In this document: piece by piece, positions 12,852 through 36,612 of the stretch
Numbering within the stretch: the first letter of the stretch is position 1
Layout: each line of letters begins with the position of its first letter
Assembly (NCBI GenBank): GCA_003224525.1
Contig: QHZB01000208.1
Coordinates: forward strand, 1 to 36,612
Reading direction: 5' to 3'
DNA: 36,612 bases
Source of the DNA: Acidobacteriota bacterium
GTDB lineage: Bacteria; Acidobacteriota; Terriglobia; Acidiferrales; UBA7541
The notes under the pieces: generated by a model
What the model was told of the DNA's origin: nothing
Databases searched by the model: none
Seen by the model: the letters and a program-made list of their open reading frames with translations, nothing else
Translations under genes and position numbers: made by a program

Positions 12852-14327
12852 ATGAAGAGACTTCCTGCTCTTCTTTTCTTGCTTTGCTTCCCAGCCGCAA
12901 CCATACTTGGGCAAAGATACGAGCCGAATTGGGATTCAATTGACCAACGTCCAACCCCTGAGTGGTTTAGCGAAGCGCGTTTTGGCATCTTTATTCATTG
13001 GGGCACCTATTCTGTACCGGCTTATGCTCCTGTCATTCCCGGCAAGCTCGCCTACGCCGAGTGGTACTGGCACGCGATGACTAATGGCAGATACGATCCA
13101 AAAGCGAATGATCTCGAGAGGGGTACCTGGGCGTTCCATCAAAAATTGTATGGTACCGATTTCGTTTACCAGAACTTTGCGTTGCAATTCAAAGCTGAGC
13201 TCTTTGATCCCGATCACTGGGCCGACGTTCTTGCCGGCTCCGGAGCGAAATACGTTGTCCTAACCTCCAAACATCACGAGGGATTTGCCCTGTGGCCAAG
13301 CAATGAAGCTTCCGCCACATGGGGACGCCCCTGGAATGCGGTCGAGATCGGTCCGAAGCGGGATTTGTTAGGTGACCTTACCGACGCCGTTCGCCGCAAA
13401 GGCTTGCGCATGGGCTATTACTATTCATTGTACGAGTGGTACAACCCCCTCTGGCTTTACAACAAGCCGCGGTACGTGACCGAGCACATGTTCCCACAAT
13501 TCAAGGATATGGTCACGCGCTACAAACCTTCGGTCATCTTCAGCGACGGCGAGTGGGAGATGTCCTCTGCCGACTGGCATTCTCCTGAACTGCTCGCATG
13601 GCTTTTCAATGACTCGCCCGCCAAAGATGAAGTAGTGATCAACGATCGGTGGGGCAGCGATACCCGGCACAAGCACGGCGGCTACTGGACGACCGAATAT
13701 ACCGCGGGCATGAGCGGGATCGACCATCCCTGGGAAGAGAACCGTGGCATGGGCGTGAGCTACGGCTACAACCGCGCCGAGGACGTCAGCGTCTATCACA
13801 CCGGCCGTGAATTGGTTTTTATCCTGGTCGATACCGTGAGCCGCGGCGGTAACCTGCTGCTCGACATTGGCCCCAACACGGATGGAACTATCCCAGTCAT
13901 TATGGAGCAACGGCTCAAAGAAATCGGCGACTGGATGAAGATCAACGGCGAAGCCATCTATGGCGCCAAACCGTGGAAAAATACGCGGCAATGGACGGCT
14001 GGCGAAGTGCCCAAGATCGAATACAACAAGGAATTCTCATCCGCGTACGATGTCACTAAGTTGATCGAGAAGCCTTCGGGCGGCAAAGCGTCTATCGAGG
14101 CGTTCTTTACCGCGAAAGGTAACGATATTTACGCAATCCTGCCGCACTGGCTAGGCCATAGCCTCGTCATTAAAGACCTGAACGCTGCCAAATCAGTCGC
14201 CCTGCTGGGCTCGCCGACACTAGTGAAGTTCAAGGCGATGAAATCAGGCCTCGCCATCGAGCTGCCAGATCTTCCTGACGATCTGAGAGCCGAGCCTGCT
14301 TGGGCGTTGAAGATCACCCTGAAGTAA
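12852..14327 (+). CDS. Secreted alpha-L-fucosidase, GH29
   Basis: From ATG 12852 the protein has 491 residues and a signal peptide (1-20). The GH29 barrel is clear: WFSEARFGIFIHWGTYSVPAY (His49), YVVLTSKHHEGFALWPS (His141-His142), GYYYSLYEWYNP, and SVIFSDGEWE with Asp232 as the likely catalytic nucleophile. The TRGGNLLLDIGPNTDG-like block (here SRGGNLLLDIGPNTDG) closes the catalytic domain, and a short beta domain follows to the end. The enzyme removes terminal alpha-L-fucose from glycans by a retaining mechanism in the periplasm or outside the cell. A GTGGAG lies before the ATG. The gene is convergent with the rhamnosidase operon, consistent with a deoxy-sugar scavenging locus. Confidence 0.93.
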   Translation: MKRLPALLFLLCFPAATILGQRYEPNWDSIDQRPTPEWFSEARFGIFIHWGTYSVPAYAPVIPGKLAYAEWYWHAMTNGRYDPKANDLERGTWAFHQKLYGTDFVYQNFALQFKAELFDPDHWADVLAGSGAKYVVLTSKHHEGFALWPSNEASATWGRPWNAVEIGPKRDLLGDLTDAVRRKGLRMGYYYSLYEWYNPLWLYNKPRYVTEHMFPQFKDMVTRYKPSVIFSDGEWEMSSADWHSPELLAWLFNDSPAKDEVVINDRWGSDTRHKHGGYWTTEYTAGMSGIDHPWEENRGMGVSYGYNRAEDVSVYHTGRELVFILVDTVSRGGNLLLDIGPNTDGTIPVIMEQRLKEIGDWMKINGEAIYGAKPWKNTRQWTAGEVPKIEYNKEFSSAYDVTKLIEKPSGGKASIEAFFTAKGNDIYAILPHWLGHSLVIKDLNAAKSVALLGSPTLVKFKAMKSGLAIELPDLPDDLRAEPAWALKITLK

Positions 14328-14719
14328 TCTTCGGGTGATAGAGGGAATTAGTCGCCGAACTCCCCCAAGGTCTTGCCTAATCCGAAATGCTAGATCGGGT
14401 CAAGAGGCATTGGCGGGGAGCGGAGAGCCTTCGTGCCACCTATGGAAGTGCACACTCCTGGATGGAGCGCCTCCCCCCGCGGTCCCTGAGATTGAACCCA
14501 AGGCGTTGAGGTTTTTTTCCATTTTGAAGGCCTTCGTGCATAGCGATGTCACTATCTCGCTTGCCACGAGGCAATTCCAGAGGTTACGCTCTTTGTTCGG
14601 AACCGCGAATCTTCCGCCACAAATCACTGGAACAAAAGAAGATGCGGCGACATGGCGGCTCCTGCGCGTTCTCCTGACCCATGACTGCACGGACAACTGA
14701 ATTGTCACCCATCGTCACC
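14328..14719. other. Intergenic region between convergent glycosidase genes
   Basis: There are 392 bases between two convergent stops. The open frames here have no binding sites and no recognisable motifs. I saw no terminator hairpin with a T-run, no RNA gene and no repeat. Confidence 0.4.
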
Positions 14720-17467: not shown

Positions 17468-17476
17468 TTGGCTGCT

Positions 17477-20400
17477 CTACCAATGCATTTTAAATCCAAG
17501 TTGTAGAATTCTCGGGTCGAATGCGCTGGGAACGAAGCCGGGCGTGGTCGCGCCAATCTGTCGACCAAAGTTGGACGAGTTGATACCCGCCGTTGTGCCA
17601 GGGCCTCCAATGCTCGGATTGAAGTGATTGATAGCGTTAAAAGCTTCGAATCGAAATTCAATCTGCTTCTGGTCGTGGATCGGGAAGACCCGGGTAATGG
17701 CCATATCCACGCTGAACGTCCCTGGTGAACGTAAGAAGTCGCGGCCAACGCTTCCGAAACCGAAAGTGCTGCTGGGAATGGTCGCGAAAGCGGCCTTGTT
17801 GAACACCACATAACACTGTGTGGTCCCCGTTGTATTGCAGGGCTGCCACTGGTTGATGTAAATCGGTTGCCCGGGAACTATGTTGGGCCGGTCGTTGCCT
17901 TCACCGGTGGCGGAAGTGTCCGTCCCTGTTCGAACGTCAATGGGCCAGCCGCTCTGCGCGCGAATTGCCGGTGCGAATTGCCATCCGCCCAAGAGCCAAC
18001 GAACTGCTCCCTCTCCGTGGAATGGGCTGGCTGCAACCACCGTCGCATTAAAGATGTGCGTGATATCAAAGTTGCAGACGGCATAGTCAGCCCGCGGGTT
18101 GTTTTGTATCTGGAAGTACGTGCCCCGCAGGTCTCCGTTGAAATCCCCAATGCTCATGCATTTCGAATAGGTGTAGTTGGTATGGAGTGAAAAGCCTTTG
18201 CGGAAGCGATGCTTCAAGCTGGCGAGCAAACCGTGGTAAGTCGAAAAGCCGCTGTCGAATGCCAGGTCGAGTATCCCAATGAGCCCAGGATTCTGTGGCG
18301 CGCTCGCTCCGCCGGCCGTGAGTGTTAAGAAGCGGCGAGGCGTCTCATTAGCGGCGCTACCTTGGCAAGTGCCTCCCGGCGCAGCCGAGCAGGCAGCCGG
18401 CGTAGCCTGCGGCGAGTTGAAGTCGTAAGACAAGGGAACGTGGACGCTTCGATTGCCCAAGTAAGAAAAGGAAACCGCCCAATCACCAAAGAACTGTCGC
18501 TCCCAGCTCAGATTCCATTGCTGCATGTACATGGGCTTCATGTCTGGCGGGAAGGAAACCCAGAACGAGCCCCCGGGGAAGATGGCTCCACTGCCAGGGA
18601 ATGGGTTCTGATTTGCGTTTGAAGACCCGCAACCCGTTGCCCTCGAATAGTTCAGCCACGGGTTTGAGAACGTGCCACACCCGCTGGAATTGTCAATCTG
18701 GTTGACGACCGGAGGATTCGACGTCAGGCGTTGCGAGTACCATGCCATCGCGGAATCGTAGAAGATTCCGTACCCGGCGCGTATGCTCTGCTTGCCGTTT
18801 CCCGTCGGGTCCCACGCAATGCCAAAGCGCGGCGCAAAATTCGGCAAGTGGTTGTTGGTGAATGCCGCTGGAACGCCCGGGTCTCCAAAAAACAGCATGC
18901 CGGCAGGAGCATTGGGATACACCGCACTGTGAACATTTTGCTGAAATGCGTTCATATTGAAAATGCTTCCGCGGCGAAATACGTCCGAGGGCCACAGCGT
19001 CGGTTCCCACCTCAAGCCGGCCGTTAATGTAATCCTGCTGCTGAGGCGAAACGTATCCTGTCCGTAAAAGCTCGGAATGGTTGAGCGATAGGCCACCTGC
19101 TGCGCGCGACTCTGCGTAAAACCGCTGTACCTGCCGATTAGAAAGTCCGCGAGGCCGTCACCGGTGAACGTTCCATTCCATGTAAACGTTCCGTTTTCAT
19201 CGTAGCCCGTGAGCGTATTGTTTTGTGTCCGGATCACAAGGGCGCCGAAGGCAGAGTGATGGCGTCCGCGAATCCAATCAACGTCATCCGCTTCCGTCCA
19301 AGTATTCACATTGAAATGGCCCGGGGCGCACGTACCGCACCCGAGACCAAAGTAGCCGCTGATCGAAGTGAGCAGAAAATTGGAGATTTCCACGTACATG
19401 TTGCTTCCAAGGGTTGTGGCGTTGATGTCGCCTGGATTCACGCCGCGATTGTCACGGCGGCGCGATGCGGTCACGTGAAACGAGTTGACCAGGTTTCGCG
19501 AGATGGAATAGTTGTCGCCGATCGTAAGGCTTTGCGCCCGTTCCCCGTTGCCGGGTGTCTGCGTCAAGATGAGATTGTGGATATCGAACGGCGGCGGAGC
19601 CTGGAAGTCATCAATGAAATAACGTCCGTAGAGATTGTGCTTGCTGCTGAACGCGTAGTCTACACGTCCGATTTCCTGGTTTTCGTTGTCAATGGCGGGC
19701 AAAGCGTAGTTCAGCAACCCGCAAGGGTCGGTCGAGAGGGGAACGTATCCTGCACTGAACACTTTAACGGAAGCCGGGTCAAAAGAGGTTGGGTTGGCCT
19801 GATTTCCTGAGAATGGGGCCTTCAACGTTCTGCCCGAAGTTGTCCCGGTACAGCCAGGCGATTCGAGAGCGGTAAAATCGCCGGCAAGCGCTGCCGCAGT
19901 CGCCGTGTGTGTCGTTGCTGTCGCCACGGAGTGTTGGCGAGTGCCTTGATAACCTGCAAAGAAAAACAACTTATCCGGGATGATCTTCCCGCCGACCACT
20001 CCACCAAACTGATTGCGTAGCAGATTGTCGCGCTTGGCGCCGCTCGCAGTGAGGAAGCTATGCGGCGCGGCGTTAAGCACACCACCCCGGTAGAACTCGA
20101 ATGCTGCGCCGTGAAGACTGTTCGTTCCGGACTTCGTGACTAGGTTCACGACACCGCCCGGGTGCAGTCCGTTTCGCGCGGGCAACGAGCTTGTTTCCAC
20201 GCTGAATTCCTGAAGCGCATCGGGAAACGGGAAGGGCAAATTGACATTCGAAAAGGTGTCGTTGTTGTCCCCGCCGTCGAGCAAATAGTTTGTTCCGTTG
20301 GCCTGCCCCCCCGCTACGGAGATCGTGACCGAGCTGTAAAAGTTCTTGCTGCCGACTTCGTCGCCCCCCGGTGCGCTCATCGACGCGCCCGAAATCAGAA

Positions 20401-20887
20401 CGAGTTGCGTCACATAGCGGCCGTTCAAGGGCAGTTCGGAGATGCGCTGCGATTCCACGACATTGGAGACCGAAGCATTCTCAGCTTGGATCATGCTGGC
20501 GGCTGCAGTCACCTCCACCGTTTCCGAGACCGAACCGACCGAGAGAACAGCGTTGAGCGTTACGTGGTCGTTCACCTGCAGCACAATTCCCGTTTGGCTG
20601 TAGCTCTTGAACCCCTCTTTCTTGACCTCGAGCTGGTAGGATCCAACGGGTAGGCCAGGCAGAACGTACCGTCCTTGTTCGTCGGTGGTCGCCGTGTGGG
20701 CAATGTTTCGCTGCGTCTCAAGCAGTTTGATCGCGACGCCCGGCACTGCGGCTCCCGAGCCGTCAGTTACTCGCCCGGACACCTGAGCGACGTTTACCTG
20801 CTGCGCTCTGGCATTCGGGGACCAGAGGACAAGCAATGCAGCGTATCCGGCCACACAAATCGCTCGATAGAGAGTCGTACGGCACAT
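17477..20887 (-). CDS. Oar-type TonB-dependent receptor of the rhamnoside operon
   Basis: From ATG 20887, with AAGGAGAT six bases upstream, the protein has 1136 residues. It shows a signal peptide (1-28) and a carboxypeptidase-regulatory-like domain (about 30-120; QVSGRVTDGSGAAVPGVAIK … GRYVLPGLPVGSYQLEV). It continues with a plug (ISELPLNGRYVTQLVLISG, YLLDGGDNNDTF, VNLVTKSGTNSLHGAAFEFYRGG) and a long barrel ending in Trp. An earlier in-frame ATG (20950) is ignored because it would delay the signal peptide. It lies between the mutarotase and the GH106 gene and most likely brings rhamnose-containing oligomers across the outer membrane. The mutarotase reading frame overlaps its first 125 bases. 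Confidence 0.92.
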   Translation of the reverse strand: MCRTTLYRAICVAGYAALLVLWSPNARAQQVNVAQVSGRVTDGSGAAVPGVAIKLLETQRNIAHTATTDEQGRYVLPGLPVGSYQLEVKKEGFKSYSQTGIVLQVNDHVTLNAVLSVGSVSETVEVTAAASMIQAENASVSNVVESQRISELPLNGRYVTQLVLISGASMSAPGGDEVGSKNFYSSVTISVAGGQANGTNYLLDGGDNNDTFSNVNLPFPFPDALQEFSVETSSLPARNGLHPGGVVNLVTKSGTNSLHGAAFEFYRGGVLNAAPHSFLTASGAKRDNLLRNQFGGVVGGKIIPDKLFFFAGYQGTRQHSVATATTHTATAAALAGDFTALESPGCTGTTSGRTLKAPFSGNQANPTSFDPASVKVFSAGYVPLSTDPCGLLNYALPAIDNENQEIGRVDYAFSSKHNLYGRYFIDDFQAPPPFDIHNLILTQTPGNGERAQSLTIGDNYSISRNLVNSFHVTASRRRDNRGVNPGDINATTLGSNMYVEISNFLLTSISGYFGLGCGTCAPGHFNVNTWTEADDVDWIRGRHHSAFGALVIRTQNNTLTGYDENGTFTWNGTFTGDGLADFLIGRYSGFTQSRAQQVAYRSTIPSFYGQDTFRLSSRITLTAGLRWEPTLWPSDVFRRGSIFNMNAFQQNVHSAVYPNAPAGMLFFGDPGVPAAFTNNHLPNFAPRFGIAWDPTGNGKQSIRAGYGIFYDSAMAWYSQRLTSNPPVVNQIDNSSGCGTFSNPWLNYSRATGCGSSNANQNPFPGSGAIFPGGSFWVSFPPDMKPMYMQQWNLSWERQFFGDWAVSFSYLGNRSVHVPLSYDFNSPQATPAACSAAPGGTCQGSAANETPRRFLTLTAGGASAPQNPGLIGILDLAFDSGFSTYHGLLASLKHRFRKGFSLHTNYTYSKCMSIGDFNGDLRGTYFQIQNNPRADYAVCNFDITHIFNATVVAASPFHGEGAVRWLLGGWQFAPAIRAQSGWPIDVRTGTDTSATGEGNDRPNIVPGQPIYINQWQPCNTTGTTQCYVVFNKAAFATIPSSTFGFGSVGRDFLRSPGTFSVDMAITRVFPIHDQKQIEFRFEAFNAINHFNPSIGGPGTTAGINSSNFGRQIGATTPGFVPSAFDPRILQLGFKMHW

Positions 20888-21299
20888 TATTGATCTCCTT
20901 TTGGCGAACACACGAACTTGCCGCTCCGTCGGGAGGCAGAACAACCCCAAGCGCGGGATTTGACGTCATTTCGCCTCTAAGCGCAACTAGAAATACTTCT
21001 TCCAACGGGACCATTGCCCGATCTGGCAAGGCGCCCTCAGGCGGCTCGAAAAAATCCGCCATCTCCCGTTGCCAGCGTTCATGCACTTCTCGTTTGGCCA
21101 TCTCGGCGCGAGCAGGGTCGAAATCCGCGGTTTTCAGATTCCCGACGAGAAGGCCGTCGGGCCGGAGGAACAGCGAGTAGTTGCTGCAACCGGTTTCGCG
21201 TAATGCCGCTCGCATTTCCGGCCACACGACACGCTGCCGCTGTTTGTAGTCCTCGAGACCTTCTGGCTTCACTCGCAGCACAAAACAAACGCGTTTCAT
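20763..21299 (-). CDS. rhaM: L-rhamnose mutarotase, damaged and C-terminally run-on
   Basis: Residues 1-107 match RhaM, which interconverts alpha- and beta-L-rhamnose: a ferredoxin-like alpha+beta fold with KRVCFVLRVKPEGLEDYKQR, WPEM at 26-29, NYSLFLRPDGLLVG, and an ending LEEVFLVAL where the family normally stops at about 104 residues. Here the frame continues another 71 codons, through the Shine-Dalgarno and into the first 125 bases of the Oar gene. The tail looks like random translation, so the natural stop has probably been lost. By alignment from memory with E. coli RhaM, catalytic His22 is Gln here. Both changes argue for decay, though the core is otherwise well preserved. The start ATG 21299 lies 11 bases after the stop of the aldolase remnant. 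Confidence 0.75.
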   Translation of the reverse strand: MKRVCFVLRVKPEGLEDYKQRQRVVWPEMRAALRETGCSNYSLFLRPDGLLVGNLKTADFDPARAEMAKREVHERWQREMADFFEPPEGALPDRAMVPLEEVFLVALRGEMTSNPALGVVLPPDGAASSCVRQKEINNVPYDSLSSDLCGRIRCIACPLVPECQSAAGKRRSGVRASN

Positions 21300-25357: not shown

Positions 25358-25417
25358 TTTAGCTAATTACGCGGTCTTTGGACGGGGTGCTACATTTTGC
25401 CAAAAGGGTGGGGTCCA

Positions 25418-28400
25418 ATGCCTAAGTCTTATTCATTGCGGTTTTCCTGTTCACTCATCCTGATTCTTGGTTGTGCGCTTGGTCTGCCTGCGCAAATTAT
25501 CACCGGTGAAATCACCGGCACGGTGACGGATCCGTCCGGGGCGGCTGTGCCCGGGGCGACGGTCACCGCGACGTGCACCGCGACGAACGCATCGCGTACC
25601 TCCACGACCAGCGACTCGGGGAGTTACGTCCTGTCGAACCTTCCGCCGTGCTTGTATAACCTGAATGTTTCGGCACAAGGGTTCAAGACCTCCCTTAGCA
25701 GCGGGGACGTCGCAGTCGGCATTACCATCAAGAAAGATTTCGCCCTCCAGGTGGGTCAGAAGGCGGAAACGATAATGGTTGAGGCGGCCACGCCTCTGGT
25801 GGACTACGCGCCAGGCGTGAACACCGACGTGGACACCAAGGCCATCCTGGATCTGCCCACCGAAGGCCGCGACTTCAAATCCATTCTCGGCCTCACACCG
25901 GGCGTGCAGCGCTCCCCGGGCGGGGGCTTTATGGACGTTAGCATCAATGGACAACGGACGAGCACCAACAACTATATGATCGACGGCGTCCCCAATAACG
26001 ACCGCTTTTATGGCAACGAGCTGGTCGGCCAGCCCGGACTCCTGGGGGTTCCTTCGGCACTTCTCGGCAACGACTCGATTGGGGAATATACGATCCAGCA
26101 ATTGCCTACCGCTGAGAACGGTGTCAAGGGCGGGGCGGCCATCAACGTGACGTTGAAGAGCGGTACCAATGGCTTCCACGGCACGGCCTTCTATTTTGGC
26201 GACTATGACTGGCTGAACGCAAACAACTTTTTCTCGTCCACGAGGACGGCCTACCACAATCATAATTACGGGGGCACGTTGAGCGGTCCCATTATCAAGG
26301 ACCGAACCTTTTTCTTTATCAACTTCGAAGCGCAACGAAACAAGTCACTCGCTCCTTACAACGTGATCCTGCCGACCCAGGGCGACCTCCAGGTAGTGCA
26401 AAACTTTTTCAACTGCACGCCCGGGAACACAGCCTCTTGCCAGATTGACCCCGTGACCATGAATCCTATCGTCACCAATACGAATAATCTGCCGATGAAC
26501 TCTGCAGGCTTGGCCTTGTTGAAGTATTACCCATGCTCAGACGGGGCAGGCGGCACTGTCCAGTGTACTCCCGCGGCAGCCAGCGCCAGTGTGCAACCCG
26601 GAGGGTTTACGCAAACCGTGTTGCTTCCCGACATCAACACGCTTCCCGGCAGCTTCATTGTCAAGATTGACCACAAGCTGAACAACAAAATGAGTCTCTC
26701 GGGCCGCTATCTTTATGCGGACAGCGTGCAGTCTGGCCCCGCGTTCGGCTACACGATTCCCCCAGCAAAAGGAAGCGGCCTGGGCGCAGACGGATTTAAC
26801 AGCATTGTGCCCACGCGGGTGCAGTTTGCCGGCGGCAATTGGATCTACAACATTGCTGCCAACAAGATCCTCGATGTGCGCTTCAGCTGGTCGCGCTTCT
26901 CCCAGATCCTGGCGCCAAATAACAAGGTTGATCCTCTGAGCCTGGGCGTCGACACCGGTCCGCTGAGCCCTCTCGACTTCGGCGTGCCGCCTGTTTATGC
27001 CAGCAGTGTGACGTATGGAAACATCGGCGGCATCCAGGGCTACCCGCTCAGCACGCGCCCCACGCAGACCTACGATGTTTCGGCCCATGCTACCTGGATC
27101 AAAGGCAACCACACCTTCAAATTCGGTGGTAACTATCAGCGCGGGTCGACGGGCAGCCTGCGGAATCGCGCCCGGACGGGCCTGTTCAGCTTCCAGGGTG
27201 ACAACCAGTATACCCTCACGCCGCCTCCCCCTACGACGCCGCCGACGCCCCCGCCCCCGCCAATTGTAATCCCCGGCTACGACGTTGTCCTCACGCAATT
27301 GCTCCTTGGCCGGATGGACCGGGCTGCGCGCTCTTTCGGCGACACTTCACGTCAAATCTACCAACCCTCTCTGGGACTCTTTTTCCAGGATGAGTGGAAG
27401 GTGACGCCTCGCGTGACGGTCAGCTACGGCATGCGCTGGGACCTGAACGGAGCGCTTGGTGAAGCCGGCAATCGTGGCTCCAATTTTTTCTCCAACAAGG
27501 GTCTAGTCCAGTTAGGCAAAGGAATTTCCCGTCTTTATAACTTGGACATGCATGATTTTGGCCCACGCGCCGGACTGGCCTGGGATATCTTCGGCAACGG
27601 CAAGACCTCTTTCCGAGTTGGTTACTCCATGGCCTACGACGTCGCTAATTTTGCCGCCATCCTCGCGCCTTACCTCTATCAGGGTGCGCGCGCTGGCGCC
27701 TTTACCAATTCCGACTTAGGGGTCTTTTCGGTCACCGCCGATGGGAACGAGGATGTGGGCACGAACCTATCGACTCTTTTCGAAGCATTTGGGCCCAATA
27801 CGTGCTACAACCCTGCGGTCAACACCGGGTCTCCCGACTGGGTTTGCATCGGCCCGCAACCGGGAGGCTCGAACCCGACCACGCCTTTCCAAACCTATGG
27901 CGCCAATCCTACGGGCACCCCGCCCTTCAGCGCATTCGGGACCGTTTCTCCCTTGCGGACGCCAAGAATCCAATACTACAACGCCACCATCCAGCATGAA
28001 CTGTTCCCGAATAATGTCCTCACGGTCAGCTACGTCGGCGCTCATGGCACGAACATGCTCCTGAACCGCCAACTGAATTTACGTCCGATCGGTTGCTGGG
28101 ACGACAACAATCCCGACAATCCCGGCCAGCAGAAAGGGCCGGCCGGTACCATATTCAACACAACTACTCTCAATTGCAGCCGGCCGCTTGACTCGGTCTT
28201 CCAGACTGGCGGTGTGCCTACATTCAAGTACGTTAACCAACTCACTAACGGCGGCTTTTCACGCTACAACTCTATGCAAGTCAGCTACCGGCAGCGCAAT
28301 TGGCACGGGCTGAACTCCATCGTCAACTTCACCTGGTCGAACTGCATCGACACCAATTCCGTCAATCGGGGTGGCAGCTCGACGTTGCCGATCCGTGAAA

Positions 28401-29035
28401 ACCCGTTCGACCCCTCAAGTAACCAGGGCCCGTGCGATACTGATATCCGGCGGAACTTCAACACGGGTATCGGGTACGACTTCCCGAAATGGAGCGCAGT
28501 GGGCCGCTTGGGAGACGGCTGGCAGATTGGGAGCGTCGCCACCTACGCCAGCGGGCGGCCGTGGACAGCGCTGCTCTCGAGCCGCGCGGATAATTCCGGG
28601 CAGGACCTCACCTACCAGAGACCAGACTGCATCGGAAAGCCCACCTACCAGTTTAGCGATCCGAACCACCCCACTATTACGAATGGGCCCGCGGTCTTTG
28701 CCATTCCGGCCGACGGAACCATCGGGACCTGCGGCCGCAACGCCTTCCGCGGTCCGCATATCGTCCAGTGGGATTTCAACCTGAACAAGACCACCAAGAT
28801 CACGGAAAGGATCAGCCTCCAGGTCCGCTTCGAGATCTTCAACCTGTTGAACCATCCTAATTTCAACACGTTACCGGCTGGCGTCACGCTCTCCGCAAGC
28901 AAGTTGGATCCGCTCAATTATCCGACCACCAGCTTCTCCACGTACTCGCAAACGCCAGACGTCTCCTCGGGCAATCCCTTCCTCTCCCAGGGCGGCCCGC
29001 GGGCTGGGCAGATCGGGGCCAAGATCATTTTCTGA
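25418..29035 (+). CDS. Oar-type TonB-dependent receptor with proline-rich insertion
   Basis: From ATG 25418 (GGGTGGGG upstream) the protein is 1205 residues; a TTG 21 bases earlier is less likely. A signal peptide (1-25) precedes a carboxypeptidase-regulatory-like domain (about 28-115; GEITGTVTDPSGAAVPGATV … GSYVLSNLPPCLYNLNV). The plug includes ILDLPTEGRDFKSILGLTPG, YMIDGVPNNDRFYG and LKSGTNGFHGTAFYFGDYDW; the barrel ends in Phe. A proline-rich run (TPPPPTTPPTPPPPP, near 27222-27266) sits in a predicted external loop. The ligand is unknown. The gene has its own promoter and ends at a perfect hairpin with a T-run, so it is probably monocistronic or only partly read through into the sulfatase-like gene. 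Confidence 0.92.
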   Translation: MPKSYSLRFSCSLILILGCALGLPAQIITGEITGTVTDPSGAAVPGATVTATCTATNASRTSTTSDSGSYVLSNLPPCLYNLNVSAQGFKTSLSSGDVAVGITIKKDFALQVGQKAETIMVEAATPLVDYAPGVNTDVDTKAILDLPTEGRDFKSILGLTPGVQRSPGGGFMDVSINGQRTSTNNYMIDGVPNNDRFYGNELVGQPGLLGVPSALLGNDSIGEYTIQQLPTAENGVKGGAAINVTLKSGTNGFHGTAFYFGDYDWLNANNFFSSTRTAYHNHNYGGTLSGPIIKDRTFFFINFEAQRNKSLAPYNVILPTQGDLQVVQNFFNCTPGNTASCQIDPVTMNPIVTNTNNLPMNSAGLALLKYYPCSDGAGGTVQCTPAAASASVQPGGFTQTVLLPDINTLPGSFIVKIDHKLNNKMSLSGRYLYADSVQSGPAFGYTIPPAKGSGLGADGFNSIVPTRVQFAGGNWIYNIAANKILDVRFSWSRFSQILAPNNKVDPLSLGVDTGPLSPLDFGVPPVYASSVTYGNIGGIQGYPLSTRPTQTYDVSAHATWIKGNHTFKFGGNYQRGSTGSLRNRARTGLFSFQGDNQYTLTPPPPTTPPTPPPPPIVIPGYDVVLTQLLLGRMDRAARSFGDTSRQIYQPSLGLFFQDEWKVTPRVTVSYGMRWDLNGALGEAGNRGSNFFSNKGLVQLGKGISRLYNLDMHDFGPRAGLAWDIFGNGKTSFRVGYSMAYDVANFAAILAPYLYQGARAGAFTNSDLGVFSVTADGNEDVGTNLSTLFEAFGPNTCYNPAVNTGSPDWVCIGPQPGGSNPTTPFQTYGANPTGTPPFSAFGTVSPLRTPRIQYYNATIQHELFPNNVLTVSYVGAHGTNMLLNRQLNLRPIGCWDDNNPDNPGQQKGPAGTIFNTTTLNCSRPLDSVFQTGGVPTFKYVNQLTNGGFSRYNSMQVSYRQRNWHGLNSIVNFTWSNCIDTNSVNRGGSSTLPIRENPFDPSSNQGPCDTDIRRNFNTGIGYDFPKWSAVGRLGDGWQIGSVATYASGRPWTALLSSRADNSGQDLTYQRPDCIGKPTYQFSDPNHPTITNGPAVFAIPADGTIGTCGRNAFRGPHIVQWDFNLNKTTKITERISLQVRFEIFNLLNHPNFNTLPAGVTLSASKLDPLNYPTTSFSTYSQTPDVSSGNPFLSQGGPRAGQIGAKIIF

Positions 29036-29060: not shown

Positions 29061-29094
29061 AAAAAGGAGTCTGCTACAATGCAGACTCCTTTTT
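29061..29094 (+). terminator. Perfect 14-bp hairpin: Oar gene terminator that encloses the next gene's start
   Basis: Bases 29061-29074 and 29081-29094 are exact reverse complements with a 6-base loop (TACAAT). The right arm ends in TTTTT, giving a classic intrinsic terminator 26 bases after the Oar stop. The left arm contains AAGGAG (29064-29069), and the ATG 29079 lies at the loop/right-arm junction at a proper 9-base spacing. In a read-through transcript the hairpin would hide both from ribosomes. Confidence 0.8.
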
Positions 29095-31037
29095 CATTTA
29101 TGCGGCGCGCTTGCATCCTTTGCCTCTTCCTTCTGTTACCCGCGCTCGCCGCGGCAGCCGCAGACCAGCCCAACGTTATCCTGATCACGTTGGATACGGT
29201 CCGAGCTGACCGCATGGGCTTTCTCGGCTCAAAGCATGGTTTAACGCCGCAACTGGATGCGCTGGCAAGTCAGGGCGTGGTGTTCGAGCGTGCCTACTCC
29301 CAGGCGCCCATCACGCCGGTCTCTCACGCGACCATACTCACCGGGACTTTTCCGCAGTACCACGGCATCCGCAATTTCGGCGATCGCCTGCCTCCAAGCG
29401 TCCCCTTTCTACCCGATATTCTTCACGCCCAGGGCTACCACACGGGGGCCTTCGTCGGCAGCATCATCCTCGACCCGAAAAACGGGTTTGCCTCCGGATT
29501 CGAACACGGCTTCGATGTCTACAACGCAGGCTTTCACCGGCAGAAAACCGGGGAGCGCCGCGAAGCTTCCATGCAGCGCCGCGGCGAGGTGACCCTGGGA
29601 CACGTGCTCGAATGGCTCGGCCAGCAGAAGGGCAAACCGTTTTTCCTGTGGTTTCACCTGTGGGACGCGCACGACCCCTACAATCCACCCGAGCCGTTCC
29701 GCAGCCGGTTTCCGAACGCCCCTTACAACGCGGGTATCGCCTACGTGGATGCCACTGTAGGGAAGCTGCTTGACTACTTGCGGAACCAGGGGCTGTATGA
29801 CAATGCGCTAATCGCCGTCGCCGCCGATCACGGCGAATCCCTGGGCGACCACGGCGAACTGACCCACAGTATTTTCCTTTACGACGCTACCATCCACGTG
29901 CCCCTGCTCCTCAAACTTCCCGGCAATCGTTTTGCCGGCCAGCGTGTCAATGCCGCGGCGAGCTTGGTGGATCTGGCGCCAACCCTTCTCGAAGCGCTGG
30001 GGCAGACGCCGCCTCCGGCCATGCAGGGCCGTTCGCTCCTCTCTCTGATTGGAAACCGGCACCCTGGAAACCGTCTTTCTTTTGCCACCGGCGACCACTC
30101 CGAACGCTCCTTTGGGTGGAGCGCGCTTGTTTCCCTGCGCATTGGCAACCAGCTTTACGTGCGCGCGCCATTGCCCGAGCTTTACGATCTGGCCTCAGAC
30201 CCTGGCGCGAAGATAAACCTCTATCCGGGCAACCGCGCCGCCGCCGTGCGCCTCGCAATCCAGGTGGATAATTTCGTGAAGCACAGCAGCACTGGGGCAC
30301 CTCAGGCCTTGCAGGACGGACTTGACGAAAAGAGCAGGGAAAAGCTCTCCGCGCTGGGCTACGTGGCCTCTGGAAAGACCAGCCCGCCCACAAGCATTGA
30401 CCCCAAGGACCGCATCGATGTGGCCAACGATATGCACGATGCCAGCCTGGCCATCGAAGAGGGAAAGGAAGCTACCGTCATCCCGCTGCTGCTGCGCGTG
30501 GTGGCCAAAGACCCGCAAATCCAGGCGGCGCAGTATTACCTGGGCATCGCCTACTCGCGGAAGGGCAACTTTGCCAAAGCCATTCCTCCCCTGCGCAAAG
30601 CCGTCGAGCTGCGGCCGGATGCGATGATGGCGCAGTACGAGCTGGCCATCTGCCTCTACGAAACCGGCGATCTGAATACTGCTGCCACGTATTTCGAAAT
30701 CTTGGTGGAAAACCGGCCCGATTGGAGCGACGCCCGCTATTCTTTGGCCTCCGTTTATGCCCGTACCGGACGGCCTCAGGAAGCAGCCAAAAACCTGCTC
30801 GTAGTCCTCCAGGGAGAGCCGGACCATTACCGCGCAAACCTGCTTCTGGGGCGCATGCTGTTTCTGAACGGCACTTTCACCGAGGCCCTGCCCTACCTGG
30901 AAAAGGCCGCAGCGGTACAAACGGATTCCGGCGAGGCGCATTCCTTCCTGGCGGATGAATACGAGAAGCTAGGCCGCGCCGCGGATGCCGCGCGCGAGCG
31001 CGCCGAAGCCGCCCGGCTGAAGACCTCCACTCGATAA
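29079..31037 (+). CDS. Secreted sulfatase-fold (alkaline phosphatase superfamily) protein with C-terminal TPRs; probable Thr nucleophile
   Basis: From ATG 29079 the protein is 652 residues; ATG 29100 is an alternative without a binding site. A signal peptide (to about 28) is followed by NVILITLDTVRADR (metal Asp39), ITPVSHATILTG, and the metal site DHGESLGDHGELTHSIFLYDATIHVP. Where sulfatases have Cys/Ser-x-Pro-x-Arg, this protein has Thr79-Pro-Val-Ser-His, so formylglycine cannot form. Thr nucleophiles are used by phosphodiesterases and phosphotransferases of the same superfamily. From about residue 455, at least four TPRs (QAAQYYLGIAYSRKGNFAKA and similar) follow to the C-terminus. It is probably a periplasmic phospho- or phosphonate-ester enzyme docked to a partner. 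A paralogue lies at 32485-34455. Confidence 0.82.
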   Translation: MQTPFSFMRRACILCLFLLLPALAAAAADQPNVILITLDTVRADRMGFLGSKHGLTPQLDALASQGVVFERAYSQAPITPVSHATILTGTFPQYHGIRNFGDRLPPSVPFLPDILHAQGYHTGAFVGSIILDPKNGFASGFEHGFDVYNAGFHRQKTGERREASMQRRGEVTLGHVLEWLGQQKGKPFFLWFHLWDAHDPYNPPEPFRSRFPNAPYNAGIAYVDATVGKLLDYLRNQGLYDNALIAVAADHGESLGDHGELTHSIFLYDATIHVPLLLKLPGNRFAGQRVNAAASLVDLAPTLLEALGQTPPPAMQGRSLLSLIGNRHPGNRLSFATGDHSERSFGWSALVSLRIGNQLYVRAPLPELYDLASDPGAKINLYPGNRAAAVRLAIQVDNFVKHSSTGAPQALQDGLDEKSREKLSALGYVASGKTSPPTSIDPKDRIDVANDMHDASLAIEEGKEATVIPLLLRVVAKDPQIQAAQYYLGIAYSRKGNFAKAIPPLRKAVELRPDAMMAQYELAICLYETGDLNTAATYFEILVENRPDWSDARYSLASVYARTGRPQEAAKNLLVVLQGEPDHYRANLLLGRMLFLNGTFTEALPYLEKAAAVQTDSGEAHSFLADEYEKLGRAADAARERAEAARLKTSTR

Positions 31038-31143
31038 CGGAAGGATAAACAAAAAAGTCGTTGATATCATCACGAAACCGTGGGGAAGGGGCCCTGCCGC
31101 GCTGACCTGCTCTCCATTCCAGCGGTTTCCAGCGGGCCTTTGC

Positions 31144-31172
31144 TGGACAGCCGCGATTCGCAACTATATACT
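31144..31172 (+). promoter_or_regulatory. Sigma70-like promoter of the NPP-type gene
   Basis: TGGACA (31144-31149) and TATACT (31167-31172) are separated by 17 bases. The ATG at 31200 is 27 bases after the -10 box, implying a short leader. Confidence 0.55.
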
Positions 31173-31199
31173 CAACTTTTTGAAACTGCGGGGTGTCCT

Positions 31200-32426
31200 A
31201 TGGTTCTCAAAAAATTTCCTTTGCTGCTATCTATTCTTTTGCTGGCCCTTCCTGTCTTTGGCCAGCAGCAAAGCAGTTCCAAGCCAAAACCTCGTGTCAT
31301 CGTCGTTGGCGTCAATGGCATGGAGTTGGACATCATCCGACCGCTGCTCCTGCAAGGCCAGATGCCGAATTTGTCGAGTGTGATCGGGAGAGGCGCCTAC
31401 GGAAAACTCCGCACGGTCTCCGCGCCCAATTGCCCGCGAGTGTACAGCACACTGTTTACGAGCACGAATCCGGAGGAGCACGGCGTAACGGGATTTATCG
31501 TTGGCGGGATCACTGCCAACACCAACATGCTGAAGGAAGAGCCGGTGTGGTCGATGCTATCGAAAAGCGGGATCACCGTGGGCATGGCCAACGTCCCGGC
31601 TACTTTCCCGGTCATGCCCGTGAACGGGTACATGATCAGCGGGATGCTGACGCGCGGCAAGAACTGCGAAGACGGCGTGCTTTGCGCACCCAAGCTGAGC
31701 GAAGTGATGGGCGGCGACGCCGTCTATCCCAAGAGCATGCAAGCCGAACTGCTGAAAAATGTCGGCGACTTCTATATTGACTGCGAGCGGATGCCGGCGG
31801 CGGCGGATCTGAAGGGTCACGAAACGGAGCTCATCGACAAGTGGCTTGGCAAGGTGCAGCTCATTCGCGAGCAGCAGACCAAGCTTTTCGATTATCTGCT
31901 GACTACGCACCCCACGGAGTTCACATTCTTGGCGCAATCGTGCGAAGACCGCACCGGGCACTGGCTTTACCCCATCACGCCTTTCAATGTCGGCTACAAT
32001 CCGAGCATCAACAGCGTCCGGATTGATGCCTTCCCGGACCAGTACGTCGCTTTCGACAAGGTGCTTGGCTCGATCCTGAAGCATGTTGACGAAAACACTT
32101 ACTTGATTATCTTCTCCGACCATGGGATCAAGCCCCTGCGCGAGTTCGAAGAGAAAGATCCCCACGCGCACATGGACCACGAGAAGACCACGCCGGTTAT
32201 CGCCAAGCACGATTTTGCCGATGGCGATGATGTCCCCGGCTCGTTCTTCGCCATGGGCCCCGGCATCAAGCATGACCTTCGGCTGATGGGTTTGGGAGCC
32301 AGCGTGTATGACGTGGCACCGACCCTATTGCACATCTATGGCCTCGAGCAGCCGAAGCAGATGCGGGGACGCATTCTGACTGAAATCTTCGAGAGCCCCG
32401 ACAATAAGGTGGCCGTGAAGAAGTAA
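31200..32426 (+). CDS. Secreted type I phosphodiesterase/nucleotide pyrophosphatase-like protein with altered active site
   Basis: The protein has 408 residues and a signal peptide (1-21). The fold is that of NPP-type alkaline-phosphatase-superfamily enzymes: PRVIVVGVNGMELDIIRPLL, MPNLSSVIGRGAYGKLRT, NCPRVYSTLFTSTNPEEHGVTGF, a central insertion, YLIIFSDHGIKP and HAHMDHEK. Two key places are odd. The first metal Asp of the usual G-x-D-G is Asn39, and the position equivalent to the Thr nucleophile (P-x-x-W-T) is Ser83 in PRVYST. The SDHG site is intact. It may be an altered-specificity phosphodiesterase or a low-activity binding protein. It sits between two inward-facing sulfatase-like/TPR genes and has its own promoter and terminator. 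Confidence 0.8.
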   Translation: MVLKKFPLLLSILLLALPVFGQQQSSSKPKPRVIVVGVNGMELDIIRPLLLQGQMPNLSSVIGRGAYGKLRTVSAPNCPRVYSTLFTSTNPEEHGVTGFIVGGITANTNMLKEEPVWSMLSKSGITVGMANVPATFPVMPVNGYMISGMLTRGKNCEDGVLCAPKLSEVMGGDAVYPKSMQAELLKNVGDFYIDCERMPAAADLKGHETELIDKWLGKVQLIREQQTKLFDYLLTTHPTEFTFLAQSCEDRTGHWLYPITPFNVGYNPSINSVRIDAFPDQYVAFDKVLGSILKHVDENTYLIIFSDHGIKPLREFEEKDPHAHMDHEKTTPVIAKHDFADGDDVPGSFFAMGPGIKHDLRLMGLGASVYDVAPTLLHIYGLEQPKQMRGRILTEIFESPDNKVAVKK

Positions 32427-32477
32427 CTCGTTCGAATCTTCCCGCCAGAAAGAGGAACTTGCTTTGATCCCATCGAC

Positions 32478-32507
32478 CGGCCGCTCATTGCGGCCGTTTC
32501 GATTTTT
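32478..32507 (+). terminator. Intrinsic terminator after the NPP-type gene
   Basis: CGGCCGC (32478-32484) and GCGGCCG (32490-32496) form a 7-bp GC stem with a 5-base loop, followed by TTTCGATTTTT on the plus strand. It overlaps the stop codon of the convergent minus-strand gene. Confidence 0.7.
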
Positions 32508-34455
32508 GTAGCGCCCTGGCCCTCGATTCAGCCCGTTGCGCGTCTTGCCGCCGCTCAAGCCCAGCATAAGCCTCCGCGAGCACCTCGAACATTGTTGCAT
32601 CGCTGCTCGAAGAACCAGCAACCGGCTCAAGCAGCTCCACCGCATCGGCAAACTTTTTCTGGCGGATCAGTGCCTTCGCAAGATCGATCTGTGCTTCGAA
32701 ACTTCCGGGCTGCAAGAGTACAGCGTCTACAAACTGGTCCTCTGCCGCTTTCGAATCGTTCAAACCCAGATAAACTCGCCCGAGTGAGAGCCGCGCTGCA
32801 AATTGGTGAGGGTTCAACTTCAGGCTTGCCTGCAGGGCGTCTCTCGCGCCGGGCAGATCGCCGCTCAATTCCAGCGCTCTGCCGTATTCGAACGCATCCA
32901 TCGCATCGTTCGGGCGCGCGTCTTGAGCCCGTCGCAAATAGCCAGCGGCTTTGGCGTAATTCCCTGAAGCCATCTCAAGCCGGCCCAGTTGTCTAAGAGC
33001 GATCGCAGAAGATTCGTCCCATTGCAGCACCTTCTCCAAGGCTACTCGAGCCTTACCTGGCTTTCCGTCTTCTGACGCCATCATCGCCGTGTGCAGCAGA
33101 TTCTGCTCCTCAATCTTGTCCTTGGGATCGGGCAACAACGAGGGTTCGGGAACATCCGTAGCGCTCCGAGCGTCGGCTGAGCCCAAATACCCGAGCGCAT
33201 GCAGTTCATCGATGGTGCTCGCAGAGACAGCGGCGGGCGAAGTTTTTCCTGGCGCTGGTGATTTGGCGCTAAACTCCGCGAGCACTCTGCGCAGTTTCTG
33301 AACCGTGCCATCCCAGGGCTCGTAATGGTTGAGCGATTCGCCAGGGTCGGCATGGAGATCGTAGAATTCCGGTTTCGGCGCCTCGACAAACTTGAAGCCT
33401 TCCATTCGAACCGATCGCAGCGGGGCCCATCCAAACCGCAGCGGATAATCGGATTCACCGAAAACGATCCGGGGAGTCGCCTCGATCCCGTTAAGGAAGG
33501 GCTCCAGAGAATCGCCGTCCAGATTTGCCGGAGCAGCAACGCCAAGCAAGTTCAGAATCGTGGGCATGATATCTGTTGTGCGAACCTGCACGTCAACCGT
33601 CCTGCCCGCCTCGCTTTCATTCGGCAACTTCACAATCAATGGAACGTGGGTCGTCGAATCGTAGAGAAAGAGGCCATGAGTATCTTCGTGATGTTCGCCC
33701 AGTCCTTCTCCGTGATCTCCCACCACAACAATTATTGCTCCCTCATACCATCCTTTTTTCTTGAGGTAAGCAAGGAAGTGACTCAACGCCGAATCCGCGT
33801 AGGCAATTTCTCCGTCATAGAGCCGGTCCTGGTAAACTTCGGAATACGGCGGAGGCGGCTCGTACGGATCGTGGGGATCGTAGAAGTGCACCCAAACGAA
33901 GTGTGCAGCAGTCGGGTGCGCGTTGAGCCACGATTCTGCGCGTTGCTCTACTTCCATACCTCGGCGCTCGAGGCGTCCCCACCGGGACTTGGTTGTCGTA
34001 CGCTCTGGGAAGTTATCGTAGAACTCGAAGCCACGATCCAGACCTGGCGCTAGATTCTTGCTGTCGAGGATCACGGAGCCTATGAATGCCGCAGTGCGGT
34101 AGCCCCCCTTCGTGAGTAATTCTGCCAGCGTGGGATATATAGCTGCCAAAGGGACGCCGAAGTCGCTGACTCCGTGAGAGCTCGGCAAATGCCCAGTCAT
34201 AATACTCGTGTGCGAGCTATTAGTGATGGGGCTGGGTGTGAATGCCTGAGTGAAGCGGACTCCTTGCTTTGCTAACAGATCTAGCGCGGGAGTTCGGATT
34301 CGGTCGTACCCATAGCAGTGAACGTGGTCGGCACGCAGAGTATCGATGGTAATGAGAAAAACGCCAGGACGGGATGCCTTGTCCGGTACGGGCTCGCGGG
34401 CGACGCTAGTACCAACCGCTAAATGGCAGCAGAGGAGAACAAAAAAGATCCGCAT
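32485..34455 (-). CDS. Second sulfatase-fold/TPR secreted protein; probable Thr nucleophile
   Basis: From ATG 34455 the protein is 656 residues with a signal peptide (1-19). An ORF start 81 bases farther upstream would bury the signal, and no strong Shine-Dalgarno decides the choice. Motifs parallel the paralogue at 29 kb: GVFLITIDTLRADH (metal Asp38), SPITNSSHTSIMTG, FVWVHFYDPHDPYEPPPPY, and DHGEGLGEHHEDTHGLFLYDSTTHVP. The sulfatase Cys/Ser position is Thr78 and the motif Arg is His82, so classic sulfatase chemistry is excluded. From about residue 455 TPR-like helices continue to the basic C-terminus. The last codon lies in the loop of the neighbouring terminator. It is divergent from the M14 gene. 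Confidence 0.82.
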   Translation of the reverse strand: MRIFFVLLCCHLAVGTSVAREPVPDKASRPGVFLITIDTLRADHVHCYGYDRIRTPALDLLAKQGVRFTQAFTPSPITNSSHTSIMTGHLPSSHGVSDFGVPLAAIYPTLAELLTKGGYRTAAFIGSVILDSKNLAPGLDRGFEFYDNFPERTTTKSRWGRLERRGMEVEQRAESWLNAHPTAAHFVWVHFYDPHDPYEPPPPYSEVYQDRLYDGEIAYADSALSHFLAYLKKKGWYEGAIIVVVGDHGEGLGEHHEDTHGLFLYDSTTHVPLIVKLPNESEAGRTVDVQVRTTDIMPTILNLLGVAAPANLDGDSLEPFLNGIEATPRIVFGESDYPLRFGWAPLRSVRMEGFKFVEAPKPEFYDLHADPGESLNHYEPWDGTVQKLRRVLAEFSAKSPAPGKTSPAAVSASTIDELHALGYLGSADARSATDVPEPSLLPDPKDKIEEQNLLHTAMMASEDGKPGKARVALEKVLQWDESSAIALRQLGRLEMASGNYAKAAGYLRRAQDARPNDAMDAFEYGRALELSGDLPGARDALQASLKLNPHQFAARLSLGRVYLGLNDSKAAEDQFVDAVLLQPGSFEAQIDLAKALIRQKKFADAVELLEPVAGSSSSDATMFEVLAEAYAGLERRQDAQRAESRARALQKSKRPQ

Positions 34456-34670
34456 AGCATCGAGCGTATCACAGCCCGCGTTTTCGACAGCTTCTATGCT
34501 TCTCCAACGCTGTGATTTAATCGTCGTTCGCCGCACCCGATAGTATCCTCATAACTCTACCTTTTTTTCACGCCTCCTTTTGAAGCCGCACCTCTTCGTC
34601 GCCTTCGGCGACCCCGTGATACACTCCGCTCGCTCAAAGAGAGGCAAATTCTCCCAAACGGAGGCGTGCG

Positions 34671-36612
34671 ATGATTCGATGGCTAGTGGGGATCGCGGCC
34701 CTACTCAGCACTTTGGCGGCTGCGGCGCTCTCCACCGACTCGGCCGCCCCCGACACTCCCGAACCCGGTTCCGTCGAAGCGATCGCGAAAGCCACCGGCG
34801 ATCCGCGTTTCCTTTCTCCTTGGGTTTCTTATCTTCCCCAAGCGCACGGTGTTCCTTCGCCACTTGCCTTTTTTGGCCGCATCCCCGGTGCCCCAGGCGA
34901 ATTCGTCGACACTGCGAAAGCGCACGCCTACTGCCGCGCACTTGCCACCGCGTCACCTCGCGTTCGCATTTTTTCCATGGGCCGCAGCGAAGAGGGCCGT
35001 GAGATATTAATGGTCGCCGTCGCCGATGAAGCCGGCATCCGCGACCTCGACCGCCTCAAAGCCGCAACCGCATCCCTCGCCGACCCTCGCACCGTCACGC
35101 CGGCCGCTGCTGAAGCGCTCATCGCTACCTCCCGCCCGATCTACTACTTCAATGCTGGCTTGCACGCCGATGAAACCGGCTCTGCGGAAGCCGTCCTCGA
35201 ACTCGCCTATCGTCTCGCGGTCTCGGACCAGCCAAACATCCGACGCATCCGCGAACAACTCGTCGTCCTCATCAATCCCGTTTCGAATCCCGATGGCCGC
35301 GACAAAATGGTGGAGTGGTTCTATCGCTACCTCAAGGGTAAGACCAATCGGGCTACCTCCCCCCGCCAGTCTCCGCCGTACTGGTCCAAATACGCCTTCG
35401 TCGATATAAATCGCGACACCCATCAGCAAACTCACGAAACCACTAGGGCCGTTCACCGCATGTTTCACGAATGGCATCCCACGGTAGTCCACGATCTTCA
35501 TGAAGGCTCGCCGCTCATGATGACCTGGAACGGTACCGGTCCTTACAACCCCAACATCGATCCCATCACCTACACGGAATTTCTCGAGCTCAGCTTTCAC
35601 GAAGTCCAAACTATGACCGCCTTCGGCATGCCCGGCGTTTCCACTTGGAATTTCGGCGAAGCCTTCAGCCATCTCTATCTTGATTCCGTGGCCATGAATC
35701 ACAATAGCATCGGTCGCGGCTATGAAACTCTCGGTAACGGCACCGCAGAGACCTTGCATTACTCTCTCCGTCCCTCACAAACCTCTATGGAGTGGTACCG
35801 CCCGGCTCCTCCTCCCGCCGAGTTTGACTGGTCGGAACGCGACAACCTCAACTACACCGAAACCGGCGCGCTTGCCGCCCTTGACTTTTCCGCTCGGAAC
35901 TCCAAAGAAATGCTTCGCAATTTCTACAAGAAAAGCTGGGACTCCTGGCGCAAGGGACTCGACGAACCTCCCTACGCCTATCTCATTCCGGAAGATCAGG
36001 GCGATCGCAAGCGGGTTGCCGATATGGTGGGCCGTCTTCTCGCGCAACGCATCGAGGTCGCTCGCGCCCAAAACGCCATCACTCTCAAAGAGGGCAACTT
36101 CGCGGCCGGCACCTATGTCGTCCGTCTCGATCAGCCCTACCGCAATTACGCCGTCGATCTCCTGTCGCCTCAGGTATTTCCCAAGGACAAAGGCGAACCC
36201 TACGATGATGTCTCCTGGGAGTTTCCCGCGAATTTCCATCTTGCCGCCATCCCCACCGCGGACGCCTCCATTCGATCCGCGGCACTCACACCTCTGAAAG
36301 AGACGCCACGGCCGGCGGGCGCCGTTTCTGGGGAAGGTCCCGCGTTTCTGCTGAAAGATACCGGCCAGGAGAGTCTTTTCGCGGCCCGCTATCGGCTCGC
36401 TACCTTCGATGTGGAAATCGCCGAGCACCCATTCAAAGTGGGCGGCGTCGACTTTCCTGCCGGCTCCTGGTTTTTGCCCGCCAGGGACGGCCTGGCCGGC
36501 GCGATTCGTTCTGTCGCCACCGAGCTTGGCCTGGACTTCGTCAGCACTTCTGCTTCTCCCGGCGTTTCGCATCACGCTGCGAGCGTTCCGCGCATCGGCG
36601 TTTGGGTGCCCT
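34671..36612 (+). CDS. Secreted M14-family zinc carboxypeptidase-like protein, 3' end outside the window
   Basis: GGAGG (34660-34664) precedes ATG 34671, and the frame is open to the right edge (647 codons), so the stop is missing. A signal peptide (about 1-19) leads into an M14-like domain. Zinc motif H165-A-D-E168 lies in YYFNAGLHADETGSAE. INPVSNPDGRD and DINRDTHQQTHET supply substrate-binding residues, and VVHDLHEGSP (His274 or His277) supplies the third ligand. This layout fits large acidobacterial M14 peptidases with a C-terminal extension of unknown role. It would trim peptides in the periplasm or outside. A catalytic Glu cannot be assigned with certainty by eye; GNGTAETLHY (about residue 360-369) is a candidate. 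Its coding strand is C/T-rich like the GMC gene. Confidence 0.85.
   Translation, partial: MIRWLVGIAALLSTLAAAALSTDSAAPDTPEPGSVEAIAKATGDPRFLSPWVSYLPQAHGVPSPLAFFGRIPGAPGEFVDTAKAHAYCRALATASPRVRIFSMGRSEEGREILMVAVADEAGIRDLDRLKAATASLADPRTVTPAAAEALIATSRPIYYFNAGLHADETGSAEAVLELAYRLAVSDQPNIRRIREQLVVLINPVSNPDGRDKMVEWFYRYLKGKTNRATSPRQSPPYWSKYAFVDINRDTHQQTHETTRAVHRMFHEWHPTVVHDLHEGSPLMMTWNGTGPYNPNIDPITYTEFLELSFHEVQTMTAFGMPGVSTWNFGEAFSHLYLDSVAMNHNSIGRGYETLGNGTAETLHYSLRPSQTSMEWYRPAPPPAEFDWSERDNLNYTETGALAALDFSARNSKEMLRNFYKKSWDSWRKGLDEPPYAYLIPEDQGDRKRVADMVGRLLAQRIEVARAQNAITLKEGNFAAGTYVVRLDQPYRNYAVDLLSPQVFPKDKGEPYDDVSWEFPANFHLAAIPTADASIRSAALTPLKETPRPAGAVSGEGPAFLLKDTGQESLFAARYRLATFDVEIAEHPFKVGGVDFPAGSWFLPARDGLAGAIRSVATELGLDFVSTSASPGVSHHAASVPRIGVWVP

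Follow-up and report, generated by a model that had tools for sequence, protein, structure and literature searches.

The alkaline phosphatase (AlkP) superfamily is a textbook case of how the choice of nucleophile and metal sets phosphatase versus sulfatase chemistry, and C-x-P-x-R is known as the signature for formylglycine maturation. Within the NPP/ENPP phosphodiesterases (Xac NPP, 2gsn/7n1s; ENPP1-7), Thr and Asp are found at two positions where the NPP-type protein described here has Cys and Asn. Sulfatases and phosphonate monoester hydrolases (PMH), which carry a Cys-derived formylglycine, share with it a Cys at the nucleophile position. As nucleophiles of the superfamily, a review (PMC11677397) names Ser, Thr and Cys-derived formylglycine. 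Among the open-access papers listed in literature searches, none dealt, by its title or the opening of its abstract, with this NPP protein or with an AlkP phosphodiesterase that has a Cys nucleophile.

The stretch of DNA analysed (the window, 36,612 nt) is a single contig (QHZB01000208.1) of a 6.47 Mb draft genome of an Acidobacteriota bacterium in 516 contigs (GCA_003224525.1). The features of the locus are given below. Residues of NPP are numbered from the Met at 31200, about where similarity to the orthologues begins. Residue counts refer to an alignment of 36 loci from 34 genomes, the window's own included, with one row truncated N-terminally and others elsewhere.

25397..29035, plus strand: TonB-dependent-receptor-like outer membrane protein (CarboxypepD_reg and OMP_b-brl_4), upstream neighbour of AP1
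29079..31037, plus strand: AP1, secreted-looking AlkP-superfamily protein (PF00884) with TPRs, Thr79 at the nucleophile position (Pfam, motif table, codon positions)
31200..32426, plus strand: NPP, PF01663-type protein (Pfam) of 408 aa from its Met, Asn39 and Cys78 replacing Asp and Ser/Thr
31314..31316, plus strand: Asn39 of NPP (AAT) at the metal-2 Asp position; Asn in 35/35 family rows, Asp in 39/39 canonical relatives
31431..31433, plus strand: Cys78 of NPP at the catalytic Ser/Thr position (hhalign); Cys in 35/35 family rows, Ser or Thr in 39/39 canonical relatives
31446..31448, plus strand: Ser83 of NPP, Ser/Thr-variable and outside the nucleophile column; 22 Ser and 13 Thr of 35
31947..31961, plus strand: Asp250 and His254 of NPP, metal-1 ligands, kept; 35/35, aligned with D/H of relatives
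32118..32123, plus strand: Asp307-His308 of NPP (SDHG motif), metal-2 ligands, kept; 35/35
32208..32210, plus strand: His337 of NPP, third metal-1 ligand, kept; 34/34 rows with a letter at this position, aligned with NPPs by hhalign
32485..34455, minus strand: AP2, AlkP-superfamily protein (PF00884) with TPRs, Thr78 at the nucleophile position (Pfam, motif table, adjacency, co-occurrence)

The three central reading frames lie where the original prediction had placed them, on the plus (AP1, NPP) and minus (AP2) strands. As called mechanically, they open at TTG (29052) for AP1 and GTG (31080) for NPP and reach GTG at 34536 for AP2. AP1 and AP2 had been described as paralogues with TPR tails that face each other across NPP. 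Their paralogy is borne out by 35% identity over 656 columns and by PF00884 and TPRs in both, and the facing arrangement is more exactly one in which AP1 and NPP, both on the plus strand, converge with AP2; the TPR tails are confined to AP1 and AP2, as none was found in NPP by the Pfam search. The assignment of the middle gene to the NPP type holds (PF01663, 71.4 bits against a cut-off of 23, E 1.4e-19). A hydrophobic stretch at the N-terminus of all three proteins suggests that AP1, NPP and AP2 are exported. In AP1, AP2 and every tabulated AP homologue that spans the motif, Thr occupies the nucleophile position and the metal ligands are present, so AP1 and AP2 look like phospho-type rather than formylglycine-type enzymes. 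They share a superfamily with sulfatases, PMH and EptA/LtaS and match the models of these below cut-off, but differ in having Thr together with full ligands, and TPRs in addition; no named hydrolase model reached the NCBIfam cut-off among the 25 matches listed for each. The receptor-like protein upstream of AP1 matches PF25183 at 508 bits, along with PF13620 and PF00593. Elsewhere in the window, positions 12813-20950 encode an alpha-L-fucosidase (PF01120), a GH106 rhamnosidase and a second TonB-receptor-like gene, which looks like a fucose/rhamnose glycan utilisation set near the AP1-NPP-AP2 genes, and a plus-strand frame that is open to the window edge (34671-36611) matches a zinc carboxypeptidase (PF00246); the mechanical ORF list has other frames there in its place, as this one continues past the edge.

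Among described proteins, the NPP/ENPP phosphodiesterases resemble NPP in their fold (VIA-align Z about 23-25), their ligand pattern and the HGF/HDF motif of the third His, at 15-19% identity over aligned residues. The canonical PF01663 relatives, COG3379-like proteins of the 'alkaline phosphatase family' such as the one at L073 9036-10658 (genome G448), have the stretches VNVPxT[FY]P..PVNG..(S/T)GMLT, DRTxH and SDHG in common with the NPP family. The L073 protein is longer than the family by about 150 residues between SDHG and the third His, and lacks four Cys that are invariant in the family. At L073 itself, three canonical NPP/COG3379-like genes stand in tandem (9036-13814). Sulfatases and PMH share the fold (2w8s, Z 22.8; 6g5z, Z 23.4), but NPP has NPP-type ligands and matches PF00884 with only 22.3 bits.

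To place the active-site residues, 23 family members, the window's included, were aligned with seven canonical relatives by hhalign (probability 100, E 1.6e-46, 355 columns). In a single register, VVGVNGMELDI is paired with IIGLDGATFDI and APNCPRVYST with HPNSFPGWSS, so that Asn39 falls on Asp and Cys78 on Ser without a gap. That canonical Ser corresponds, in a further alignment of the profile, to the Thr of Xac NPP (2gsn, TFPNHY) and to that of phosphonoacetate hydrolase (3szy). A joint alignment of eight family rows with 39 canonical PF01663 relatives from the same phylum gave the canonical states listed above for all 39, and the third His is common to all 34 canonical rows whose loci extend that far, five rows being truncated before it. 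This 47-row alignment left out L008, L016, L017 and L019 (poor or degenerate), L007 and L009 (the same proteins entered as L150 and L144), and L131 and L139, in which no ORF with a DHG motif was picked. The mapping of Cys78 is taken from hhalign and the 47-row alignment, the nucleophile region being gapped in an alignment with eight NPP-type proteins.

Two earlier assignments were dropped. The original prediction had put the nucleophile position at Ser83; hhalign and the 47-row alignment place Cys78 on the catalytic Ser/Thr, and residue 83, five residues further on, is not fixed, though it bears a hydroxyl group in all 35 rows. A third lost ligand, with Asp343 in place of the third metal-1 His, appeared in a first MAFFT alignment; the NPP-type and 47-row alignments put His337 there, in a HDF motif equivalent to the HGF/HGY of NPPs.

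Set against a catalytic NPP-type phosphodiesterase, NPP thus has the complete metal-1 set of Asp, His and His, a metal-2 set (Asp, Asp, His) whose first Asp is Asn39, and Cys78 instead of a Ser/Thr nucleophile. Exactly one metal-2 ligand and the nucleophile have been altered and have stayed altered, with metal 1 intact. The Asn at the metal Asp position had been anticipated, and its fixation in every row that reaches it shows that it is not a singleton. Since these two changes are fixed and the other five ligands are kept, the site is probably a functional variant rather than a product of decay. The whole protein is highly conserved (84% mean column identity), so two conserved residues are by themselves weak evidence for catalysis. 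A degenerate PF01663-like protein is encoded at L017 1210-3402 (genome G031), with Asp changed to His and SDHG to SPSG, unlike the NPP pattern.

The fold of NPP was modelled with AF2. With the family alignment of 23 sequences the mean pLDDT was 51.6 and the model was set aside; a better one was obtained when the N-terminal part of a relative from a viral contig (L088) was added (24 sequences, mean pLDDT 66.0, pTM 0.76). An alignment with most of L088 looked misaligned and was kept out of AF2. The best VIA-align matches of the model were ENPP7 (Z 24.9, rmsd 3.7 over 281 residues) and PafA (Z 24.4, 3.4 over 297), followed closely by other ENPPs, sulfatases and PMH. Foldseek returned structures of the NPP/ENPP type, the best at E 4.9e-10, with TM-scores of about 0.5. 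The predicted fold is accordingly that of the AlkP superfamily. The model backs this fold but not the geometry around Cys78 and His337, since pLDDT is below 50 at residues 73-80 and 309-345, which include them. A search of PDB sequences with the NPP family alignment gave 0 matches at E 0.01.

The genomic neighbourhood of NPP is conserved mainly on the AP2 side. At 31 of the 36 NPP loci, the window's own counted, NPP has an AP2-type gene (identity to AP2 48-90%) no more than 1.4 kb away; in 29/36 this gene is downstream of NPP and convergent with it. Exceptions in placement are L035 (upstream, same strand), L047 (divergent) and L127 (2.2 kb away, at a contig end). No AP2 is in view at L048, which is cut inside NPP, or at L077, L086 and L087. 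The latter are the sole NPP loci of three genomes (G023, G076, G545); 1.4 kb of downstream contig is visible in L077 and 1.6 kb in L086. AP2 is not obligatory for NPP, because neither G023 nor G076 holds any match to the AP2 profile at 1e-60. The adjacency is found across genera and families (group codes f1, f6, f11). Among 399 genomes of the same class, scored on the best three or four candidates per genome, NPP occurs in 21, an AP2 orthologue (E 1e-170) in 22 and both in 17; AP2 is thus present in 17/21 genomes with NPP versus 5/378 without it (Fisher p 4.6e-22, uncorrected for relatedness). In genome G572, AP2 is in broken pieces and falls below the E 1e-170 cut.

AP1, on the other hand, adjoins NPP in only six of the 24 loci from named genomes, all of them close relatives (NPP 82-93% identical), and these have the order receptor-AP1-NPP-AP2 wherever the contig reaches; a receptor-like gene is kept upstream of AP1 in L025, L026, L027, L030 and L043. 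Other lineages often have, behind AP2, another two AP-TPR genes, then a TPR protein that matches CarboxypepD_reg below threshold, and an OMP_b-brl_4-type receptor; a VWA protein sometimes intervenes. An AP2-AP3-AP4 module lacking NPP was seen in the three AP2-only genomes examined, of five. By adjacency and co-occurrence, what recurs as a unit is NPP with AP2, and NPP looks as if it were added optionally to a set of genes centred on AP2. The genes are therefore neighbours in other genomes as well, though the proposed three-gene neighbourhood stands for the NPP-AP2 pair and not for AP1: the trio is lineage-specific, a pair plus optional neighbours.

Some loci show further arrangements. Where NPP stands without AP2, an Ig-like protein gene is found upstream on the same strand (L086 2929-6192, L077 2209-5889, L087 8135-9262); those of L086 and L077 carry SBBP beta-propeller repeats and DUF7948, and that of L086 also the NCBIfam 'lipo-invert' putative C-terminal anchoring domain. 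The Ig-like protein is a possible second partner for NPP. The window's own genome has a second AP2-like gene, 64% identical and with no adjoining NPP, on contig C196 (L124 9017-11056), and a further AP-TPR-like gene about 10 kb beyond it. In G714, three NPP copies or fragments lie on three contigs (L035, L048, L127) with rearranged neighbours.

The distribution of NPP is patchy. It was found in 10 of the 89 genomes of the source family, and a search of a phylum sample matched 4/396 genomes, one of the four matches being a canonical protein. The best named match is from an Acidobacteria MAG (93% identity). Outside Acidobacteriota, the sequence search covered genome contigs, in a single scan for close relatives with the window's NPP protein as query, as well as plasmids and viral contigs. 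Among viral contigs, the family alignment as query gave no match, and canonical relatives as queries gave one canonical relative, L088. The 51 plasmid records all stay below 60% identity and below 80% coverage of the query; those listed, 15 in number, are haloarchaeal and annotated as 'alkaline phosphatase family protein'. Identities within the family are at odds with the species: a genome of the same genus (G023) is 97.3% identical to the window's in an rpoB stretch and 68.1% in NPP, and one of another family (G312) 75.0% and 78.7%, respectively, with rpoB compared over the part lying inside each locus (the rpoB value of G696, 22.9%, stems from a wrongly picked ORF and was ignored). A tree of 21 NPPs groups G023 with G545 of family f9 (support 100/97) and requires at least two changes of the genus label. 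This conflict is best explained by horizontal transfer or by differently sorted old duplicates. All copies that reach the site have kept Asn39 and Cys78, which argues for selection on it.

The reading we prefer, with a probability of roughly 0.45, is that NPP is an exported enzyme that uses unmodified Cys78 as its nucleophile and works beside AP2; by its sequence it is probably a chemically unusual enzyme and not a decayed one. Several other explanations bear on the cysteine itself. From residue 30 onward, exactly five Cys (78, 156, 162, 195, 248) are present in 33 of the 36 rows, the exceptions being two truncated rows and one with an extra Cys. Oxidation of Cys78 to formylglycine would make NPP a sulfatase-like or phosphonate-monoester-hydrolase-like enzyme, and formylglycine formation is the known use of Cys at this position of the superfamily (PMC11677397). 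The family reads N-C-P-[RK]-[VIA]-[YF], however, without Pro at +2 or Arg at +4, and the absence of C-x-P-x-R from its sequences disfavours this modification; as the nearest profile relatives are NPP and COG3379-like proteins and not sulfatases, formylglycine is highly improbable here. Cys78 might instead be a structural or redox switch that toggles an active phosphoesterase through a disulfide or sulfenic acid, water or another residue being the nucleophile. This would suit a protein that is probably exported and has four further invariant Cys, among them Cys248, two residues from the ligand Asp250. An odd number of cysteines leaves one thiol over, however, if the remaining ones form disulfides, and Cys78 would be that free thiol if 156/162 and 195/248 pair. 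Given also that Ser83, the sole alternative nucleophile considered, varies between Ser and Thr, a switch function is unlikely.

A different question is whether NPP is an enzyme at all. It may, as the original prediction suggested for the middle protein, be a non-catalytic partner: its Asn/Cys site would bind metal and a phosphate-bearing ligand, and its part would be to hand substrate to AP2 and AP1 or to regulate them. The joint loss of the catalytic Ser/Thr and one metal Asp fits such a role, as does the recurrent pairing with an AlkP-type protein of intact ligands, and the L017 protein of a relative makes plain that PF01663-like proteins do degenerate. The loss of the metal-2 Asp is also expected to weaken metal binding, which counts against the enzyme. 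Yet Cys, which is a good nucleophile, is the replacement in every case, all five remaining ligands are present in every row that reaches them, L017 illustrates how real decay looks, and three genomes have NPP with no AP2 adjoining it. The exact exchange of the nucleophile and one metal ligand, with the rest kept, speaks no less for a changed catalytic site than for a binding subunit, and we regard the non-catalytic role as the main alternative, though a less likely one than the enzyme. Finally, the cluster might be no more than an ordinary set of genes for scavenging phosphorus or sulfur, with AlkP genes next to one another merely through their abundance: 28 to 165 loose first-look AP-TPR-like candidates were counted per listed genome. 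Against such chance stands the recurrence of the same type of AP2 gene in the same convergent position, and the co-occurrence of NPP and AP2 far above expectation, albeit uncorrected for relatedness, makes this explanation very unlikely. Chance neighbourhood, redox switch and formylglycine are all less likely than either the enzyme or the binding partner.

If NPP is an enzyme with Cys78 as nucleophile, it would be a hydrolase or transferase of the NPP/COG3379-like branch in which metal 2 had been remodelled in an ancestor of the present orthologues. Metal 1 (Asp250, His254, His337) and metal 2 (Asn39, Cys78, Asp307, His308) would hold a phosphate ester or diester, on which the Cys78 thiolate would attack to give a covalent cysteine intermediate, resolved by water or an acceptor. 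The neutral Asn in place of Asp may offset the extra negative charge of the thiolate. NPP would act together with AP2, which is phosphoesterase-like, with a Thr nucleophile and TPRs, and their substrate would be a phosphate-containing one of the envelope or one imported via TonB and the adjacent receptor; the original prediction had suggested a polymer or lipid. The fuller proposal is more tentative, and as a whole rather unlikely: a natural AlkP enzyme with an unmodified Cys thiolate, charge compensation by Asn at metal 2, phospho- or acyl-transfer through a Cys intermediate, an envelope or imported substrate, a Thr-type partner and horizontal spread.

The fixed and apparently unmodified Cys, together with the change from Asp to Asn at one metal site, constitutes a natural experiment on two residues. 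Through its recurrent pairing with AP2, NPP could also offer a first way into the AlkP/TPR proteins, which are numerous in these genomes.
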